Shown: positions 662 through 8,519 of the stretch, one piece after another | Layout of the letters: the number at the start of each line of letters is the position of its first letter | Numbering within the stretch: position 1 is the stretch's first letter | From: Bifidobacterium choladohabitans | GTDB taxonomy: Bacteria; Actinomycetota; Actinomycetes; Actinomycetales; Bifidobacteriaceae | Assembly: GCF_016102005.1 (NCBI RefSeq) | Contig: NZ_JACFPL010000001.1 | Coordinates: 496,001-560,000, forward strand | Length of the DNA: 64,000 bases | Direction: 5' to 3' | Position numbers and translations under genes: made by a program | The notes under the pieces: generated by a model | What the model was told of the DNA's origin: nothing | What the model saw: the letters and a program-made list of their open reading frames with translations, nothing else | Databases searched by the model: none

Positions 662-1381
662 CTACAGCTCTTTCAAGGTCTTTCGAATGTAGTCGGCAGC
701 GGAAGACTTATGCACAAGCTCGGGCAGGCAGATATCCTTCAATGAGCATGCCCGACATCCCGTCTTTGGCTTCACCTTTGGAGTATGGCCTCGCCGATAA
801 AGGTCCCGCATCTGCGCCAGATCATCGACTACCTGGGCGCGAAGATCATCGTTGAGTTCGACCACTTCACGGCGCTTGGTCCGCTGGTAGAACAATGCCC
901 CCTGGCCAATGCTGCAGGAGAGCATTTCTTCCAAGCACATGGCTTCGCCGCACAATTGCAAACGATCAGCATTATTGACCTTGCTGGAACCATGCTTGTA
1001 CTCAATAGGATAGGGTCTCCAACGTCCTCTTCTGCCTGTCAATGCAACTCCATCCTGAGCTGCATGAAATTCGACGATGTCACAATCGCCGACCACTCCC
1101 AGCCTTCGGGAGAATACACGCAGGTCGCGCAATATCAAGGTGTCGCCACGTTTTTCTGAAGCATGGTAGTCGTGAGCACGCCGATGTTCGAAGTCTCCTG
1201 CATATGTTCTGGTGTTGTCACGCCATTGCTCCTCTATGTGGATCAATGCCCATTGGCGCTTACAGAATTCGAAATGCTGAATGCCAGACAGGGCCAGCCA
1301 TTCATCCTCAGGATATTCGGCCGGCCCTGTGGCCATGGACAAGTCCATGGAATTATCACTCATTGCAGCAGACTCAGCCAT
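662..1381 (-). CDS. cas4: Cas4 nuclease, type I-C
   Basis: Cas4 is a RecB-family Fe-S nuclease that trims prespacers and selects PAM-containing ends for Cas1-Cas2. The 239-residue product shows the iron-sulfur cysteines: C40 in the FCKRQW motif, and C209, C212 and C218 in GCRACSLKDIC. A RecB-type YPIEYKHG motif lies near residue 125 with the catalytic Glu and Lys. The length is slightly above the usual 200-220 because of about 25 extra N-terminal residues; the start may be at an internal Met (residue 7 or 12). It overlaps the end of cas7 by 8 bases, as expected for translational coupling in the operon. All cluster residues visible in the family are kept, so adaptation capacity may persist even though cas3 is disrupted. 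Confidence 0.95.
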   Translation of the reverse strand: MAESAAMSDNSMDLSMATGPAEYPEDEWLALSGIQHFEFCKRQWALIHIEEQWRDNTRTYAGDFEHRRAHDYHASEKRGDTLILRDLRVFSRRLGVVGDCDIVEFHAAQDGVALTGRRGRWRPYPIEYKHGSSKVNNADRLQLCGEAMCLEEMLSCSIGQGALFYQRTKRREVVELNDDLRAQVVDDLAQMRDLYRRGHTPKVKPKTGCRACSLKDICLPELVHKSSAADYIRKTLKEL

Positions 1382-2306
1382 CCACCATTTCAGTCAGTTC
1401 GACCGACTGCGGAATAGCTGAAGTATCGACGGTCACATCGTAATCCGAGAAGCTGTGCGGGGTCTCAACCTCAGGCTTATGGGCCACATGAATGCTATCG
1501 AACAGCTTGTAGGAGGGAGCATCGCCAAGATCGTTGCTGTGCTTGAAGACATAGAGCTTGCGAACAGCCATCTTGCCCCTAGCTGCGGAATGATCGAACT
1601 CGAACATGTTGAGAATAGCCTGCCAAAGCATAGCCAGGTCCTCCTCACTAAAACCGGTGGTCTTTTGTGCAAGTTTGGCATTCACATAGCCATCAGCACG
1701 GTATAGACCGTAAGGAACGATGGACTTGTTACCCATCTCGTTGTTCTTGTTCTCTTGGTCTTTTTCTGTAGTAATGGCCACCCTGGTGATGGTGACAGAC
1801 CGCGGGAAAATCGGATCGATGGACTTCGAGAATCCAAGTTGCACAGGGCCACGCACCTGGCCACAGGCCAACCCGCCTTTGACGAAGGTGGTCATCACCG
1901 CGCCAAAGGTCCTGATATCGAAGAAATTGGAGCACATATAATCGAGGATTAATCTATCCAGCTCGCCGTTTTCCTTCTTGGCCTTCTTTAAAGCCTTTCC
2001 GATGCTGTCCGCATCGGGATTCCCATTGACACCAACCGCTTTCAGCGCCTCAGCATCGAGGCGGTTCAGAGGAACCTGCTGCTTGATATAAATACGCCAG
2101 GGCGCCTCATCCCCATTAATCAGCTGCACATAGTTACGTATCTTCCTCTTCAGGCAAACATCTGTAACAATTCCAATCCCGGTCTCACTATCGGTTCGTG
2201 GCATATTGCCTGAGTCCGGATCTCCGTTGGGATTGCCATTCTCAACATCGTAGAGAATGGAGAAATCATACCTATTTTGGATAGCCTTGGCTGTTTGGTC
2301 ACTCAT
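1374..2306 (-). CDS. cas7: Cas7 (Csd2), type I-C Cascade backbone subunit
   Basis: Cas7 polymerises along the crRNA spacer to form the backbone of the I-C Cascade. The 310-residue protein opens with NRYDFSILYDVENGNPNGDPD, a hallmark of the Csd2 RAMP family, and contains SNFFDIRTFGAVMT and GLACGQVRGPVQLGFSKSIDP, also typical of Csd2. Length is normal for the family. It overlaps cas8c by 8 bases upstream and cas4 by 8 bases downstream. I see no truncation or frameshift. The composition is less GC-rich than the flanking core genes, which fits horizontal acquisition of the whole locus. Confidence 0.97.
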   Translation of the reverse strand: MSDQTAKAIQNRYDFSILYDVENGNPNGDPDSGNMPRTDSETGIGIVTDVCLKRKIRNYVQLINGDEAPWRIYIKQQVPLNRLDAEALKAVGVNGNPDADSIGKALKKAKKENGELDRLILDYMCSNFFDIRTFGAVMTTFVKGGLACGQVRGPVQLGFSKSIDPIFPRSVTITRVAITTEKDQENKNNEMGNKSIVPYGLYRADGYVNAKLAQKTTGFSEEDLAMLWQAILNMFEFDHSAARGKMAVRKLYVFKHSNDLGDAPSYKLFDSIHVAHKPEVETPHSFSDYDVTVDTSAIPQSVELTEMVDG

Positions 2307-4092
2307 TTACAACTCCTTCTTCATTGTTGGTTTCCTTATTGTCGTCCTTGTTCTTGCTCTTGTAGCGCTCCTGAGTCTCGAAATAGTATCCGAGCTGGAA
2401 AGCCCCCTGTTCAGGCAGCGATAATCTCGTCGGGAAGTTCTCGCCGATTCTGATCATCAGATCGGCGATACGCTTGGTATAGTAAATCTGCGTTCCAGTC
2501 GAAAGTTTTCGCAGGTGCTTTTTCGCCAAATCGCTCAAGTGCGGGAAAACCACGGCTGGCATGGTCGATGCATTAGTGAAGAACCGATCAGCAATCGTGG
2601 TTTTGATATCAGGATTCGCAGCATGTTGTATATCCTCATACAGGGCGAACAGTCGTCCTAGGACATAGGGCACATTAGTGCTTTCTTTATTGATGGACAC
2701 TTGCAATACCTCCTTAGGGCATTGGTTGTTTGGATGACGAAGAAAATACGCTTTGATAATTGCAGCCTTGGCGCGGGGCACGTCATGCTCAACGCCAATG
2801 CGGTTCTCAACAGCAGTCAGGAGCGCCGTAGGATAGGGCGCACCTGTAAGAATGGCCTTAAAAAGGTCGGAAACTGTATGGGGGGAAGCAGGGATCCTCT
2901 TTTTCCCACCATTGGCGGGCGGTACAGTTTGCGCAAGCAGCATCCACACAGGTAGGTCACGACGCTTGTCAAATTTCGGGCGTTCGATATCCAGATCTTC
3001 ATAATGCCGACGTACATGCTCCATGTAACTGCCATAGGTGTCCTTCAAGAAGAAGGACACCGAAAGTCTGGCGGCGTTGGGGGCAAGTCCAAGGATGTAG
3101 AAATGCTCATCCGGATTAAGCCTGACACCATTGAAATCAACTGGGTTTCCTTTAGACAAGGCCGTGACAGTGGCTATCAGATCCTGTTGATCAACCCCTA
3201 CGGCGCCTTCAATACACATGTTCATCTCGGCTGAGTACTCAGCCTGTCCTGATTCTGCCCAAGAGACAATCGTCAAGGAACCATCATTGATAGTTCTTGT
3301 GTACTGATCGTCCTTCAACACAGTATTCAAAGCTGTAGTGTAGGCAAAGGCTTCGCGTTTGCTCATGGGAGCATTTTGATCCTGCTTTTTGTTGTAGGAA
3401 AGATATGCTGGGGCATTGAAAGACACCAGTGCGGATCCACTGGATTGTGCGTTGCGGACGCCTCTGATATTTGGATGAGTAAGAGCGGGAACGACGGCTT
3501 GGCCTGAAACAACACTTTGCATGGTTTCAGAACCAGCGGCCGGATCATCACCGTCCTCGTCACCCGAAGAGAACCATGAATCCCAGTATCTTTGCATGGT
3601 TGGGTTTTCAGATAAAGGTAAGCCGCTGCGGCAGAGGACGAAATTACCGGTCAAGGCCTTCTTCCAGTCCCCTTCGCCTAATTTCTCCTCGACAACTGCA
3701 GCTTGAGGCGTCCGGGAAAAGAAAGCGAGCACTGCACGGGCTTCATCATCTTCGGCGTTTGCAAGCACCTGACGATGCAATTCAGCAGCAGCTGCAAAGC
3801 GCTTAGCCGCCTTGTCTGTTGCACCGTTGGCATCTGCACCTAGCAGGTAAGAGGAGTTGTCGCAGAGGAAATTAGCCTGAATTTTCACCGTTCGTAATGC
3901 ATGTGCCGGAACAGGCATCATACGTCTGAACTGCTTGTTCTTTGTCAATGTCCCAAATGGAATGACATGGGTTATGGCCCCGTCATCCGCTATGTCCAGT
4001 CCCCACGGAACATTTTCAACGCTGTATCCATACCGCGGTGCCTGACCAGCCTCCACCAGCCGGTCGTAAAGTCTGACTAGTTCGCCAATCAT
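2299..4092 (-). CDS. cas8c: Cas8c (Csd1), type I-C Cascade large subunit
   Basis: Cas8c is the large subunit of I-C Cascade; it reads the PAM, opens the DNA and recruits Cas3. The 597-residue length is typical of Csd1. Recognisable segments are the N-terminal YDRLVEAGQAPRYGYSVENV, the central LVSFNAPAYLSYNKKQDQNAP, and LGLAPNAARLSVSFFLKDTY, all diagnostic of Csd1. In I-C systems an internal translation start in this gene also yields the small subunit (Cas11c); a C-terminal fragment of about 120-130 residues would be expected, but I could not fix its start. It overlaps cas5 by 4 bases (ATGA) and cas7 by 8. The PAM normally read by this subtype is TTC, which matters for the putative guide RNA upstream of the operon. 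Confidence 0.96.
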   Translation of the reverse strand: MIGELVRLYDRLVEAGQAPRYGYSVENVPWGLDIADDGAITHVIPFGTLTKNKQFRRMMPVPAHALRTVKIQANFLCDNSSYLLGADANGATDKAAKRFAAAAELHRQVLANAEDDEARAVLAFFSRTPQAAVVEEKLGEGDWKKALTGNFVLCRSGLPLSENPTMQRYWDSWFSSGDEDGDDPAAGSETMQSVVSGQAVVPALTHPNIRGVRNAQSSGSALVSFNAPAYLSYNKKQDQNAPMSKREAFAYTTALNTVLKDDQYTRTINDGSLTIVSWAESGQAEYSAEMNMCIEGAVGVDQQDLIATVTALSKGNPVDFNGVRLNPDEHFYILGLAPNAARLSVSFFLKDTYGSYMEHVRRHYEDLDIERPKFDKRRDLPVWMLLAQTVPPANGGKKRIPASPHTVSDLFKAILTGAPYPTALLTAVENRIGVEHDVPRAKAAIIKAYFLRHPNNQCPKEVLQVSINKESTNVPYVLGRLFALYEDIQHAANPDIKTTIADRFFTNASTMPAVVFPHLSDLAKKHLRKLSTGTQIYYTKRIADLMIRIGENFPTRLSLPEQGAFQLGYYFETQERYKSKNKDDNKETNNEEGVVNE

Positions 4093-4745
4093 GAGCTCAC
4101 CCTCGGATCAGTTGCATCCAGCACGCCGTTAATCAACTCAGCTCTGAAAAACATAGGTTGCGGATCCGCAGGATCTCTATAGTCCATGTCATATAACATG
4201 TACCCCAGATCCCGACGACCGTTTTCGAATCCCTTGGGCTGACCCTTATCGACATCCCAAAGCCGAAAATCGACAGGGAACTCCCGTGTTCCGAAATAAG
4301 GGTGGTGATAGTATTGCCCGTTCTGAGCCCGTCTATTGAACATGCTGATGAACTTAGCCGGCGTATCCCCTTCAGCTGCTTTGCTATTCATATCAAAGTG
4401 CGCCTCAATCACATAGTGAACGTCTCGCAGAATGGTGGAAGCACGCTGTTGGATGTCTGAGGAAGCATAGATCGCGCTGTCTTTGGAAGGATCATTGATC
4501 ATCGACCTGATGGTATCGGCCGAAATCACGCTGCTGACCTCATTGCGACGAACACTGGTGAATCTGATAGGATTCATAACCACGATCCTGTCAATCCGCC
4601 AGACCATGCCCGGATGCCAGAACACAGCCTCCAGAATCCCTCGTGCCGCCGACGGCGTCATCACGTCGTACGAGACCCTCTCTACTTTCATTTCCGGTCT
4701 GGTGAAGAGGGCGTACGGACCCCAGACCTCAAGTTGTACTGTCAT
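4089..4745 (-). CDS. cas5c: Cas5c (Cas5d), type I-C crRNA-processing endonuclease
   Basis: In type I-C, Cas5 replaces Cas6: it cuts pre-crRNA at the base of the repeat hairpin and stays bound to the 5' handle of about 11 nucleotides. The 218-residue product begins with MTVQLEVWGPYALFTRPEMK and contains SYDVMTPSAARGILEAVFW, the signature N-terminal ferredoxin-like fold of Cas5d. Catalytic Tyr/Lys/His candidates are present, but I cannot assign them without an alignment. The gene overlaps cas8c by 4 bases and follows the cas3 helicase frame after 43 bases. No cas6 is present, as expected for I-C. Confidence 0.96.
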   Translation of the reverse strand: MTVQLEVWGPYALFTRPEMKVERVSYDVMTPSAARGILEAVFWHPGMVWRIDRIVVMNPIRFTSVRRNEVSSVISADTIRSMINDPSKDSAIYASSDIQQRASTILRDVHYVIEAHFDMNSKAAEGDTPAKFISMFNRRAQNGQYYHHPYFGTREFPVDFRLWDVDKGQPKGFENGRRDLGYMLYDMDYRDPADPQPMFFRAELINGVLDATDPRVSS

Positions 4746-4788: not shown

Positions 4789-6933
4789 TCAATACTGCAG
4801 ACCGTTTTGAGGCAGCTGATCTTCATCGACCTGCAGACCTGTAGCACTGTCGTACATGCCCATGTCCAGCAGAATAAATGCATCGTCATCCGACTTTGCA
4901 CCATGCTCCGCCAGAGCGGATATCTTTCCGGCCTCTTTGAGTCTGTCCAGCTGCCTAGGCCAGACATTGACCGCGTACCGGCCCAATCTGCGGAACAGCC
5001 CTCGCGTATAGCAACGAGGATCAGTCAGCTGGGCACACAGGGCGCTCGCTTCTTCATTGACCGGTATATAGACGGGAACAGTTGGCGTATCAATCAGCTT
5101 GAACCGCTCAGCAATCTGAGCGAACGGCATACGGCATCCTGATATTCCACGCTCATGAGCCTTGAGAATCTGCCGCTGATCGAGACTCTCGTCCCCACAC
5201 ATTCCAAAGAGCCTGGTGAAATATTCATGAATCGCTTTTGAAGATGACAGGTCAGCATTGTCTTCCCGCACCAATTCGAAAGCCAGCATATTCTGTTTCA
5301 AAAACGAAACCTGGCCCTCATCAGTCGAAAAAACATGAACCAGCGAGGCATCCGCATCACGTCGACCTTCTCTATTGCAACGGCCAGCTGTCTGAAGAAT
5401 CGAATCAAGGCCTGTCTGTTCCCTATATGCCTCGGGGAAATCGACATTCACTCCGGCCTCTATCAAAGACGTGGATACGACCCTGCAAGATTCTCCTTGA
5501 GCGAGGCGATCCCGTATCTGCTTCAGCAAACGTTCCCTGTCATAGGCACATTGCAATGTAGTCAGGCAGAAAGTGCCGTCTTCAAAACCATGCTTTCGCA
5601 CCGCTGCGGAAATGTACTGCGCTTCCTTACGTGTGTTGACTACGCACAGGACCTGATTATGGCCTTCCACTGCTGCAGCCATCTCATCCATGTCCTTATG
5701 ACCGTCATCGACGATTCGGTTGCGCCGGAATTGCGAGCGCTCCTTTTCGCTCAATGGAGCAATTTCTGGAATTGCCAGATTTGGACGTCGAAGAGCTTGG
5801 GCAAACAAATCCTGCAAGGCCGGCTGTGTGGCTGTACACAGCACCGCAGTGACATGATAATTGGTAACCAGCTCAGCTATGGCTTGTAAACATGGTTTAA
5901 GCTGAGGCAAGGGCAATGTCTGGGCCTCATCGAAGATCACAACAGAGTTGGCTATGTTATGAATCTTCCTGAGTTTAGAAGCCTTGTTGGCGAACAGACT
6001 TTCGAAAAACTGCACAGCAGTGGTTACGATAACAGGCATGTTCCAGTTCTCAGCTGCAAAACTACGATGCAGATCGTTTGCTGTAAGCTCGTTTTCCTCC
6101 TTCAATTGGAAAGCCGCATCTGCATAGTGTGGCAAAACCTCATCTGGCCCAAGGAGGGTTTCAAATTCCTTTACCGTCTGGTCGATGATTGACGTGTAGG
6201 GCACGACGTAAATGACCCTATCCATATGATGCGTTTTGGCGTGTTCAAGCGCGAAAGTGAGTGAGGAGTCTGTTTTGCCACCGCCTGTAGGAGCGGTCAG
6301 CGTGTATAGACCTGGTTTCCATTCAGGATCGGCTCCGTGAGTAAGGCAGTCACGCAATATGGCATTGCGCTTTTCATTCAACGACGTTCTCGCCTTCGCC
6401 GACAGGAAGGATTCAGCCCTGCGCTCCATGATTTCAGCAAGCGCCATGATTCTGACCGACTGATGCTCACGCAGCTGCTCAGCCAGCGCTTTGCTTATTT
6501 CACGTAATTCCTGTGGAGGCGGCATTATAGAGCTGGACAGACGATCAGGACCGAGATCTTGAAGCAGCTGTTCGAGGAATGGTGATTCATCGCGCTCTAC
6601 TTTGCCATTGACAAAGAACTCGGCATCCAGCCGATCTGCATCCACTAGTGCTGATTCGTGCATACGGATACGCATCATATCCGAGAAATGCGATCCCAAA
6701 GAAGCGAGCGGCTTGACTTCGGGAAGAGTGATCTCATCCTTCCAATGCGAGGCATCAGGGTTCGGACGCTTCATTCTGCCGACCAAGGTGCTTGAATTCT
6801 CGGTATCAATACAATTGCCAAAATCCGGCAAACCAGCATGATGTCCTGCAATGGCAAACGTGGCTTCTTGAAGATGACGCTTATAGGCTTCTTTCATCCC
6901 GTATGAGGAGTGATTGACACTACTGCTCATCAT
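4789..6933 (-). CDS. cas3: Cas3 helicase part with C-terminal piece of the HD nuclease (frame-disrupted cas3)
   Basis: This is the larger half of the effector nuclease-helicase of the I-C system, 714 residues. It shows a superfamily 2 Walker A (TAPTGGGKT, residues 213-221), a DEAQ box (335-338) and helicase motif VI (QTAGRCNREGRR). The first 40 residues (NHSSYG, AGHHAGLPDFG) are not an N-terminus but the middle of the HD nuclease domain, normally read in one frame with the preceding 82-residue frame. A strong Shine-Dalgarno-like AGGGAGG lies 3 bases before ATG 6933 and 6 before ATG 6930, so this half may be translated separately. Relative to an intact gene, a +1 shift (one extra base, or two lost) separates the halves. 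A sequencing error remains possible. Confidence 0.93.
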   Translation of the reverse strand: MMSSSVNHSSYGMKEAYKRHLQEATFAIAGHHAGLPDFGNCIDTENSSTLVGRMKRPNPDASHWKDEITLPEVKPLASLGSHFSDMMRIRMHESALVDADRLDAEFFVNGKVERDESPFLEQLLQDLGPDRLSSSIMPPPQELREISKALAEQLREHQSVRIMALAEIMERRAESFLSAKARTSLNEKRNAILRDCLTHGADPEWKPGLYTLTAPTGGGKTDSSLTFALEHAKTHHMDRVIYVVPYTSIIDQTVKEFETLLGPDEVLPHYADAAFQLKEENELTANDLHRSFAAENWNMPVIVTTAVQFFESLFANKASKLRKIHNIANSVVIFDEAQTLPLPQLKPCLQAIAELVTNYHVTAVLCTATQPALQDLFAQALRRPNLAIPEIAPLSEKERSQFRRNRIVDDGHKDMDEMAAAVEGHNQVLCVVNTRKEAQYISAAVRKHGFEDGTFCLTTLQCAYDRERLLKQIRDRLAQGESCRVVSTSLIEAGVNVDFPEAYREQTGLDSILQTAGRCNREGRRDADASLVHVFSTDEGQVSFLKQNMLAFELVREDNADLSSSKAIHEYFTRLFGMCGDESLDQRQILKAHERGISGCRMPFAQIAERFKLIDTPTVPVYIPVNEEASALCAQLTDPRCYTRGLFRRLGRYAVNVWPRQLDRLKEAGKISALAEHGAKSDDDAFILLDMGMYDSATGLQVDEDQLPQNGLQY

Positions 6934-7168
6934 AAGCCTCCCTGATCATCCTCTGGAATTCATCCGAATACTTGCCTATGTCATGAAGAAGGCCAGTGTC
7001 CAGACCCATATCAGCCTGATCCTGGTCATACAGATAACCGGCCAGCCTGCCGGCGAAGGCTGCATCAAGGCATCCCGTCATTACCAGATGCTGCACGCAG
7101 ACTTCAAAACCATGATCTTTCGAGGTACGGGCCAGATACTCGTCTATCTCATCGCCTTCAGCCGTCAT
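6920..7168 (-). pseudogene. cas3: Cas3 HD nuclease N-terminal fragment
   Basis: This 82-residue frame contains the start of the Cas3 HD domain: QHL with the first metal-binding His, and TGLLHDIGKYSDEFQ with the HD dyad. It stops at TAG 6922-6920, 14 bases inside the following helicase frame. The later HD-domain histidines are encoded in that next frame, so neither product alone holds a complete metal site. The start ATG at 7168 is preceded by GGCAGG at a workable distance, and the operon promoter lies about 170 bases upstream. Either the gene is inactivated, the two peptides assemble in trans, or one base is a sequence error. Confidence 0.85.
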
Positions 7169-7333
7169 CTAAACAACCTGCCAAAGGATAAATCACAGTT
7201 GATTTGGGCATCATTTATCAAGCAAAAACCAGTGACCGGCTTAGGCAGGTAGACATCTTCGAATCTGAATACAACCAACTCAACCATCAACCCTTCTCCC
7301 TCGTATGGGCGAACAACTACGTTCTTTCAAATA

Positions 7334-7362
7334 AGGATAATGCCTTTCTCAGATAATGTCAA
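7334..7362 (-). promoter_or_regulatory. Sigma-70 promoter of the cas operon
   Basis: On the minus strand a perfect TTGACA (7362-7357) is followed after 17 bases by TATCCT (7339-7334), a good housekeeping promoter. Transcription would begin near 7327, leaving a 5' leader of about 160 bases before the cas3 start at 7168. The site just upstream of the -35 box resembles the spacer of the repeat-like RNA described next. Confidence 0.72.
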
Positions 7363-7380
7363 TTCGGTCTCTGACTGTTC
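7363..7380 (+). promoter_or_regulatory. Protospacer-like site with TTC PAM abutting the cas promoter
   Basis: The plus strand reads TTC (7363-7365) followed by GGTCTCTGACTGTTC (7366-7380). The segment directly following the degenerate repeat, read on the minus strand from 7501 to 7486, is GGTCTTCTGACCGTTC. The two agree at 14 positions with one single-base gap and one mismatch. The first five bases are in register; after that the match needs the gap. TTC immediately 5' of a protospacer is the usual I-C PAM, and the site abuts the -35 box. The alternative is an imperfect inverted repeat recognised by a protein. Confidence 0.5.
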
Positions 7381-7446
7381 TAAAAAGAGATACTGCGTGC
7401 ATGTATTAACACTTAAAGTTTAAGCGCAGCGTATAAAAGATAATAC

Positions 7447-7480
7447 AAAAGGCCCATCAGCCAATACTGATGAGCCCTTT
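7447..7480. terminator. Bidirectional rho-independent terminator
   Basis: A 14-base-pair stem with a 6-base loop (AAAAGGCCCATCAG, loop CCAATA, CTGATGAGCCCTTT on the plus strand) with T-runs on both sides. On the minus strand it ends the repeat-like RNA before the cas promoter; on the plus strand there is no obvious upstream gene. Confidence 0.75.
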
Positions 7481-7526
7481 CATAAGAACGGTCAGAAGAC
7501 CATTTCAACCCTCGCCTCATGGCGAC
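7447..7526 (-). ncRNA. Putative Cascade-guiding small RNA (CreR-like): degenerate I-C repeat, spacer-like segment, terminator
   Basis: Read on the minus strand, 7526-7502 starts GTCGCC, forms a CGCC/GGCG hairpin with a 4-base loop and ends with an 11-base tail AGGGTTGAAAT, the length of the handle left by Cas5 in type I-C. Its last 14 bases match the I-C repeat end GCGTGGATTGAAAT at 12 positions. A segment of about 21 bases follows (7501-7481) and then a terminator hairpin. The first 16 bases of that segment nearly match a TTC-flanked site at the cas promoter. This layout, a single repeat-like element plus a cas-promoter-matching spacer upstream of the cas operon, is that of the cas-autoregulating guide RNAs known in other subtypes. 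I found no convincing promoter for it, and the role is inference. Confidence 0.5.
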
Positions 7527-7706
7527 TTAATCCGTCTATGCACGTTGTGCCAATCTCATCTACAGGGCATATACTGCACAGACCAGATGCAATCATCCAT
7601 AAGAGTCTCTTAATTACAGCTGGACTATGCAACATTACGGACTTCTACCAAGATACTCTGCACTAGGGAACATGTAATTGACACGTTCATCGATTTAATC
7701 CATCAT
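7527..7706. other. Intergenic, no gene seen
   Basis: About 180 bases between the repeat-like RNA and the decayed AraC-type regulator. A promoter for the small RNA should lie here on the minus strand; only weak -35/-10-like elements are visible (for example TTGGCA near 7553), none convincing. Confidence 0.4.
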
Positions 7707-8220
7707 CTACAACGTACGGCGACGGTACTCCATAGGAGACATGCCTACTTGGGATTTCAGAGCGCCGCAAAAGACGGACAGCTTGTAATATCCGCAATTC
7801 AGAGCTATCTGCTTGACAGGCTTGGAGGAATTGCTGAGCATGCTGCGAGCTGCATTGATTCGCGCGTCCATAACATAGGCATGAGGCGTATAACCGGTTG
7901 CCTTTTCGAATACCCTAATGAAGCTGCGCTCCCCTATGCCAGTCATAGCGGCAAGCTGATGAAGATCGAGGGCTCATCCAGATGATTGGCAATATATGTC
8001 ATCACCATTTGAATGTCATGGTCGCCCCTGTCAACGTCATCCCGGCACACCGGCAAGCAAGCTGCGCATCGGCCAGCAGACTGGTAGAGATGGTATTAGT
8101 ACAAAGTGTGAGCTCGCCAGATTTTAAATACATGATATGAAAACTGGGACAGGTATCGCGCTCGGTGCGATGACCGTTGAGCATATAGTAAGACCTTCTT
8201 GGTATTGAGACTGCGAGCAA
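7707..8220 (-). pseudogene. Decayed GlxA/AraC-type transcriptional regulator
   Basis: The 79-residue frame at 7707-7946 is a clear AraC-family double helix-turn-helix: GERSFIRVFEKATGYTPHAYV, IALNCGYYKLSVFCGALKSQVGMSPMEYRRR. The sequence upstream, in another frame (about 7960-8030), continues the homology with HDIQMVMTYIANHLDEP, and a third frame (8002-8220) has MLNGHRTERDTC and YLKSGELTLCTN, which resemble the amidase-like domain of GlxA-type regulators (weakly). At least two frameshifts and loss of most of the N-terminal domain mean no full regulator can be made. A functional GlxA-type regulator would be about 310-330 residues. The remnant suggests that the region between cas and acpS is decaying. 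Confidence 0.75.
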
Positions 8221-8240
8221 GGGTCATGAATGCTTGGCAT

Positions 8241-8519
8241 TTACTTGTTCGTGAAGCCGAAGCCCTGCAGCAGAGTGCTCAGAAATCCGGGGATTACCCT
8301 ATTCAGGATGGCAAGGCCAATGATAACGACCACCACGAAGACGACGATTCCTATTAGCTCATCACGCTGTCGCTGACGGCGTTCAGCCTCACGCGCCGCA
8401 GCCATCCTCTTGCGGTAAACCACCGGACACGTCGTCCCTGGACGATGACGATGTACAGGACACTCTGGATCATACTGACACACACCATTAGCATAAGTCT
8501 CCTCGCCGGATCCATGCAT
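8241..8519 (-). CDS. Small membrane protein with Cys/His-rich N-terminus, unknown function
   Basis: A 92-residue product from ATG 8519 (an upstream GTG at 8570 would add 17 residues). The N-terminal part has a Cys/His cluster, CQYDPECPVHRHRPGTTC, possibly a small metal site. A charged stretch (KRMAAAREAERRQRQRDE) follows, then one strong transmembrane segment, LIGIVVFVVVVIIGLAILN, and a short tail. This suggests a single-pass protein with a cytosolic zinc-ribbon-like head. I do not recognise the family. The frame overlaps the end of the 8525-8803 frame on the same strand, so one of the two, or both, may be a remnant of a longer broken gene. Confidence 0.4.
   Translation of the reverse strand: MHGSGEETYANGVCQYDPECPVHRHRPGTTCPVVYRKRMAAAREAERRQRQRDELIGIVVFVVVVIIGLAILNRVIPGFLSTLLQGFGFTNK

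Follow-up and report, generated by a model that had tools for sequence, protein, structure and literature searches.

A guide that covaries with the cas promoter suggests a Cascade-guided autorepressor in the type I-C CRISPR locus of Bifidobacterium choladohabitans

Introduction

CreR, a cas-regulating RNA, was reportedly described by Liu et al. in 2023 (Cell Host Microbe). Passages of three reviews name CreRs of types I-B, I-E and V-A, and present a model in which repression is relieved when crRNAs or anti-CRISPRs take Cascade away (PMC13131331, PMC12948488, PMC12737573). Other degenerate repeats guide repression elsewhere; according to excerpts of PMC9458426, CreA of CreTA is a crRNA-like RNA from ectopic degenerate repeats that aims Cascade at the promoter of a toxin, and scaRNA of Francisella novicida combines a degenerate repeat with about 15 bp of pairing to direct Cas9 to a lipoprotein operon. 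Solitary type I-C-like repeats also occur in bifidobacteria as phage-borne decoys (Racr), among them RacrIC1 of a Bifidobacterium pseudocatenulatum prophage (excerpts of PMC10651486).

Here we describe an element upstream of a type I-C cas operon that resembles CreR in its mini-CRISPR form, its degenerate repeat near cas, its limited complementarity to the cas promoter and its expected Cascade-guided autorepression, but differs in being of type I-C, with predicted processing by Cas5c, and in that this strain's promoter site is without one base. Unlike CreA, its guide faces the promoter of the cas operon rather than that of a toxin; unlike scaRNA, it would work with Cascade on cas; and unlike Racr, it adjoins cas and has a conserved guide-site pair. 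We propose its assignment to CreR from anatomy and covariation. The open literature searched (titles, abstract openings and passages) names no type I-C or bifidobacterial CreR, and the single mention of type I-C in PMC13131331 concerns another matter; with few subscription papers covered, this absence is weak evidence of novelty.

Results

Organization of the element and the cas operon

The genome, of 2.08 Mb, is assembled in 10 contigs; the window, which is the whole 64,000-nt stretch of DNA analysed, lies within contig 3. Its features are as follows.

662..1381, minus strand: cas4 (TIGR00372)
1374..2306, minus strand: cas7 (TIGR02589)
2299..4092, minus strand: cas8c (TIGR01863)
4089..4745, minus strand: cas5c (TIGR01876)
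4789..6933, minus strand: cas3, second frame (rest of the protein, helicase)
6920..7168, minus strand: cas3, first frame (start of the HD domain; TIGR01596, below the curated cut-off)
7334..7362, minus strand: cas operon promoter, TTGACA (7362-7357), 17 nt, TATCCT (7339-7334), score 10/12
7363..7365, plus strand: TTC, the type I-C PAM, adjoining the -35 box
7366..7381, plus strand: promoter target site (protospacer), one base missing at guide position 6
7447..7480, minus strand: intrinsic terminator of the predicted small RNA, also in relatives
7485..7501, minus strand: guide (spacer-like), 17 nt matched to the cas promoter site, starting at 7501
7502..7526, minus strand: degenerate solitary type I-C repeat (psi-repeat) GTCGCCATGAGGCGAGGGTTGAAAT, 25 nt, with a 5-bp hairpin followed by the 11-nt handle AGGGTTGAAAT (7512-7502); conserved in loci L010, L011, L012, L043 and L050

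Read along the minus strand upstream of cas3, the psi-repeat is followed by the guide, a 15-bp terminator and the cas promoter, an order put forward in a preliminary description whose placement of all four parts held. The strain's true array lies to the left of the window and has 123 copies of the repeat GTCGCTCCCTTCACGGGAGCGTGGATTGAAAT, with which the psi-repeat has a GTCGC start and a TTGAAAT end in common; the earlier doubt whether the real array repeat ends in a similar handle is thereby settled. As in CreRs, the degenerate repeat stands outside the array and adjoins the cas operon.

The terminator is the only one detected between 7250 and 7720, where shuffled sequences gave an expectation of 0.2. 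A promoter scan found three candidates against 1.0 expected, the two besides the cas promoter both being on the plus strand. For the small RNA itself the scan found no good promoter in the window, the best match upstream of the repeat scoring 7/12, and this weak point of the preliminary description persists; scores elsewhere were 7-8/12 in the five relatives described below and 10/12 in locus L034. The predicted RNA of this strain folds into three stems, corresponding to the repeat hairpin, a guide hairpin and the terminator (z -5.6). When the predicted RNAs of relatives were folded likewise the terminator formed; the repeat hairpin was clear in L043 alone, those of L011 and L012 not showing it clearly at minimum energy. 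An Rfam scan of 6900-8300 with E values up to 1 gave no matches.

Several neighbouring frames were recorded. The frame after cas4 should, by its position, be a putative cas1. In all six genus loci (the window, L010, L011, L012, L043 and L050) the coding sequence of cas3 breaks within the HD domain, giving two frames that overlap, with an ATGATG restart just before the first stop; in 7 of 7 loci of other Bifidobacteriaceae cas3 is a single frame of 779-895 aa. The split looks kept rather than a chance frameshift, and the two frames are perhaps translationally coupled. A 40-codon leader frame (7165-7287, minus strand) lies between the cas promoter and cas3, its stop overlapping the cas3 start (ATGA); like-placed frames have 41 codons in L010 and L011, a longer one is present in L012, and that of L043 stops early. 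Next to the element, an 88-codon open stretch among stops (7710-7973, minus strand) matches an AraC-type helix-turn-helix (PF12833, E 1.2e-21) and is probably the remnant of a regulator.

Match between guide and promoter site

When a gap at position 6 is allowed, guide positions 1-17 differ from plus-strand 7366-7381 only at 6 (the gap) and 12, and the positions expected not to be flipped out by Cascade match in 15 of 15 cases, solely if the site is without one base at position 6. Compared ungapped, guide and site match at 6 of 14 positions. With a one-base shift allowed, the best match beside TTC, TTT or CTC in the 588-nt region is 14/14, and 400 dinucleotide shuffles of the region reach at most 11. 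The near-identity reported earlier is thus borne out, as are the TTC before the site and the contact of the site with the -35 box, but its extent was set one base short, at 16 rather than 17 guide positions. Searching the strain's genome for TTC plus guide with up to 3 mismatches returned 15 places, including the guide itself, versus 13 for a reversed control, and no better target among them. Since the ungapped match is only 6/14 and the gap matters, relatives must decide whether the pairing is real.

Covariation of guide and site in relatives

Within the genus, 27 genomes were searched (this one included), and a strong Cas5c match was found in six and a weak one in a seventh. The closest named relatives, with Cas5 98-99% identical, are Bifidobacterium asteroides ESL0199 and ESL0200, Bifidobacterium sp. 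7101 and B. apousia W8102. Four of five relatives (L010, L011, L012 and L043) have all four parts (repeat, guide, terminator and site) in the equivalent position, in upstream DNA that has otherwise diverged and matches only in short pieces, at 71-85%. In the fifth, L050 (Cas5 72% identical), the arrangement is the same, with a guide and a site unrelated to those of the others; within positions 1-15 these two differ from each other at position 7 only. The PAM beside the -35 box is TTC in the window and in 4 of 5 relatives, and TTT in L010. All five relatives thus show the PAM-flanked, limited complementarity to their own cas promoter that characterizes CreRs.

Among the five syntenic loci (the window, aligned with its gap, and L010, L011, L012 and L043), guide positions 4, 5, 7, 8, 9, 11 and 13 vary, and the site varies identically. 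With the window aligned in this way, pairing each guide with its own site is the best of 120 possible assignments (63/65 matches, the runner-up having 61). Across the four syntenic relatives, all 8 cells at positions 6 and 12 are mismatches between guide and site, compared with 2 of the 52 cells at the remaining positions of 1-15 (Fisher p 1.8e-8); those two are L012 at position 10 and L010 at position 15. In-register covariation spans about 15-16 nt and breaks at 6 and/or 12 in these four relatives, and at 7 in the fifth. Anatomy, conservation, guide-site covariation and six-base phase are established by these comparisons; repeat, spacer and promoter site, whose joint conservation across related I-C loci had been suggested as a check, are all co-conserved, and the covariation supports the reading of the element as a Cascade-guided autorepressor.

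In type I-E, one crRNA base in six is flipped out and unpaired (excerpts of PMC5904413). The six-base phase resembles a footprint left by Cascade on the site, and because guide and site differ at 6 and 12, the positions at which a base would be flipped out, we infer that the site has been preserved as a target of Cascade and not of a protein. Base flipping in type I-C would then resemble that in type I-E, as the mismatch pattern itself suggests. It had been counted against the element that only 5 seed bases precede the gap; the gap falls on a position that Cascade would flip out.

A wider survey of Cas5c loci

The survey comprised 69 loci with a Cas5c-like protein, namely the window, 40 from genome contigs, L050, 7 from other Bifidobacteriaceae and 20 from other Actinomycetota. 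A strict scan took 61 of these, leaving out five without a 500-aa frame and three with short upstream DNA, and demanded three things: a repeat handle, a guide and a site flanked by TTC. Two positions six apart were left free, and among the rest of positions 1-15 no more than a single mismatch was tolerated. Of the 61 loci, 9 passed when 6 and 12 were the free pair; with each of eight other free pairs 2-3 loci passed, and with no free pair, 2. None of 1220 shuffled regions passed. The nine loci are L011, L012, L043 and L050, L034 (Megasphaera), L036 (Eubacterium aggregans), and L116, L118 and L120 (Actinomycetota). No strict-rule pair was found in the other 52 of 61, among them 7 of 7 loci of other Bifidobacteriaceae. 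The window fails through its gap and L010 through its TTT.

A looser rule had first been applied to 42 of 49 loci, six of the others having no frame of cas3 size and one having short upstream DNA. It gave hits in 8 loci, none of them among the 7 from other Bifidobacteriaceae, against 8 in 840 shuffles; one of the eight, L019, was an AT-only low-complexity match inside its own repeat-like stretch and is not counted. The window's ungapped site fails both scans. L018 is alike by eye, but matches at 10/13 and also fails both. Matches of 11/13 in L110, L111 and L112 in a 5.6-kb scan were taken as chance, and matches of 11-12/15 found in many loci when no PAM was required look like chance as well.

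Over 11 loci (the nine strict loci with L010 and L018), mismatches number 0-2 at each of positions 1-15 except for 9 at position 6 and 9 at position 12, then 4 at position 16 and 7-10 from 17 to 27, in a tally where L034, L036, L018, L116, L118 and L120 were selected by a score that ignores 6 and 12. The unselected test is that on the four syntenic relatives, and the strict scan with other free pairs controls for phase. The end of the PAM is 0-2 bp from the -35 box in the window, the five relatives and L036, 8 bp in L034 and 9 bp in L118; no clear promoter was found beside the site in L018, L116 or L120.

Two of the distant loci have features of their own. About 2.7 kb upstream of cas5, L116 has a CreR-like unit whose site precedes a small gene upstream of cas3, named helix-turn-helix-like by eye, and this gene may be the target of the unit. 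The L120 locus carries, about 2.4 kb upstream of cas5, a mini-CRISPR whose spacer is followed by another repeat-like stretch; this mini-CRISPR seemingly lies in the cas3 leader. Its site, with a mismatch at position 1, is just upstream of the mini-CRISPR itself, and RNA and operon might share one promoter.

State of the element in this strain

The window's guide is colinear with those of relatives, and the base was therefore most simply lost from the site. Changes specific to this lineage appear at positions 7, 11 and 13 in guide and site alike, which argues that selection maintained the pair until recently, or maintains it even now; the copy would be either recently damaged or tolerant of a bulge. 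The window's guide also folds on itself at -8.3 kcal/mol, compared with -2.4 to -3.4 in four relatives. A base-call error may lie behind the missing base, a single strain of the species having been compared.

These observations bear on the strongest alternative, that the element here is a relic, a former CreR disabled by the loss of one base from its site, with cas autorepression lost in this strain and kept in relatives. The base missing opposite a colinear guide, the self-folding of that guide and the absence of a good RNA promoter in the scan all speak for it, but the matched changes at 7, 11 and 13 indicate pairing kept until recently, and the lost base is one that Cascade would not pair. 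We put this reading a little below an even chance, and hold that there are about even odds that this strain's copy still works as predicted.

Discussion

We consider it highly likely that the element is a one-repeat mini-CRISPR encoding a CreR-type, Cascade-guided autorepressor of the type I-C cas operon. A transcript would begin close to the psi-repeat and end at the terminator. Cas5c, the crRNA-processing protein of type I-C (excerpts of PMC7684278), would cleave it below the hairpin and leave the TTGAAAT handle, and Cascade (Cas5c, Cas8c and Cas7) would load the RNA and bind the TTC-flanked site adjoining the -35 box, presumably excluding RNA polymerase from the cas promoter. In Neisseria, type I-C Cascade placed at a promoter site with a TTC PAM represses that promoter, and TTT also serves as a PAM there (excerpts of PMC10865793). 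For type I-E, passages of PMC5904413 report that a PAM and 5 nt of seed pairing suffice for binding in vivo in E. coli, that maximal affinity is reached with a match of no more than 18 bp, and that robust interference needs a longer R-loop. Given these data, the 15-17 nt observed here fit a guide that lets Cascade bind but not cut; pairing of this length would hold Cascade tightly and is probably too short for attack by Cas3. By analogy with published CreRs, repression would be relieved by an abundance of array crRNAs or by an anti-CRISPR that disables Cascade.

Apart from the relic discussed above, three readings of the same region were weighed. A guide of CreTA or CrePA kind would repress a toxin rather than cas at this promoter. 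In favour of this, the window, L010 and L011 each have a frame of 40-41 codons between the promoter and cas3, and L012 has a longer one. Against it, an early stop breaks the frame in L043, L050 has no comparable frame listed, and the frame shares a transcript with cas3, whose start it overlaps; the promoter leads into cas3 with only this frame between. Judged from this frame, we regard an antitoxin as very unlikely.

A remnant of a former array, or a lone repeat unit acting as a Racr-like decoy, in either case with a functionless spacer, would account for the degeneracy of the repeat and for a further repeat-like piece upstream in L043, and solitary I-C repeats are indeed anti-CRISPRs in Bifidobacterium prophages (excerpts of PMC10651486). 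A functionless spacer, however, would show no covariation with the cas promoter, least of all in the phase of Cascade. Racr units are phage-borne, away from cas and without a working guide, whereas this element adjoins cas and its guide-site pair is kept in the genus; such an origin for its present state is highly improbable. The piece in L043, GTCGCTCTCTTCACGGGAGC, lies about 90 bases upstream of the psi-repeat (at 7204 in that locus), and together with the full-length psi-repeat there resembles the early decay of a real repeat-spacer unit.

A protein operator, or a DNA inverted repeat next to the promoter, has next to no chance of being the explanation, even though guide and site form an inverted repeat and the window's guide is a short palindrome in itself, since a protein site would not diverge freely while keeping mutual pairing that skips 6 and 12, and a PAM and a repeat handle stand beside the pairing.

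A bolder proposal can be made only tentatively, and we think it unlikely to hold in full: that I-C systems of Actinomycetota and Bacillota carry several diverged CreRs, whose guides and promoters co-evolve at 15-17 nt and are tuned to bind and not to cut, and that in this strain the sixth, flipped-out target base is dispensable, not merely unpaired.

Judged from sequence comparison, the defence complex very probably turns down its own production via this guide. If this is right, self-repression guided by RNA reaches a type I subtype that is both minimal and common, and natural guide-site pairs are an evolutionary record of how Cascade reads DNA, over about 15-16 positions with every sixth ignored. 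The loss of one base in this strain would offer a natural test of whether Cascade needs the flipped-out target base. The element also suggests that crRNA supply and anti-CRISPRs, and not a dedicated protein regulator, determine I-C cas levels in these bacteria.
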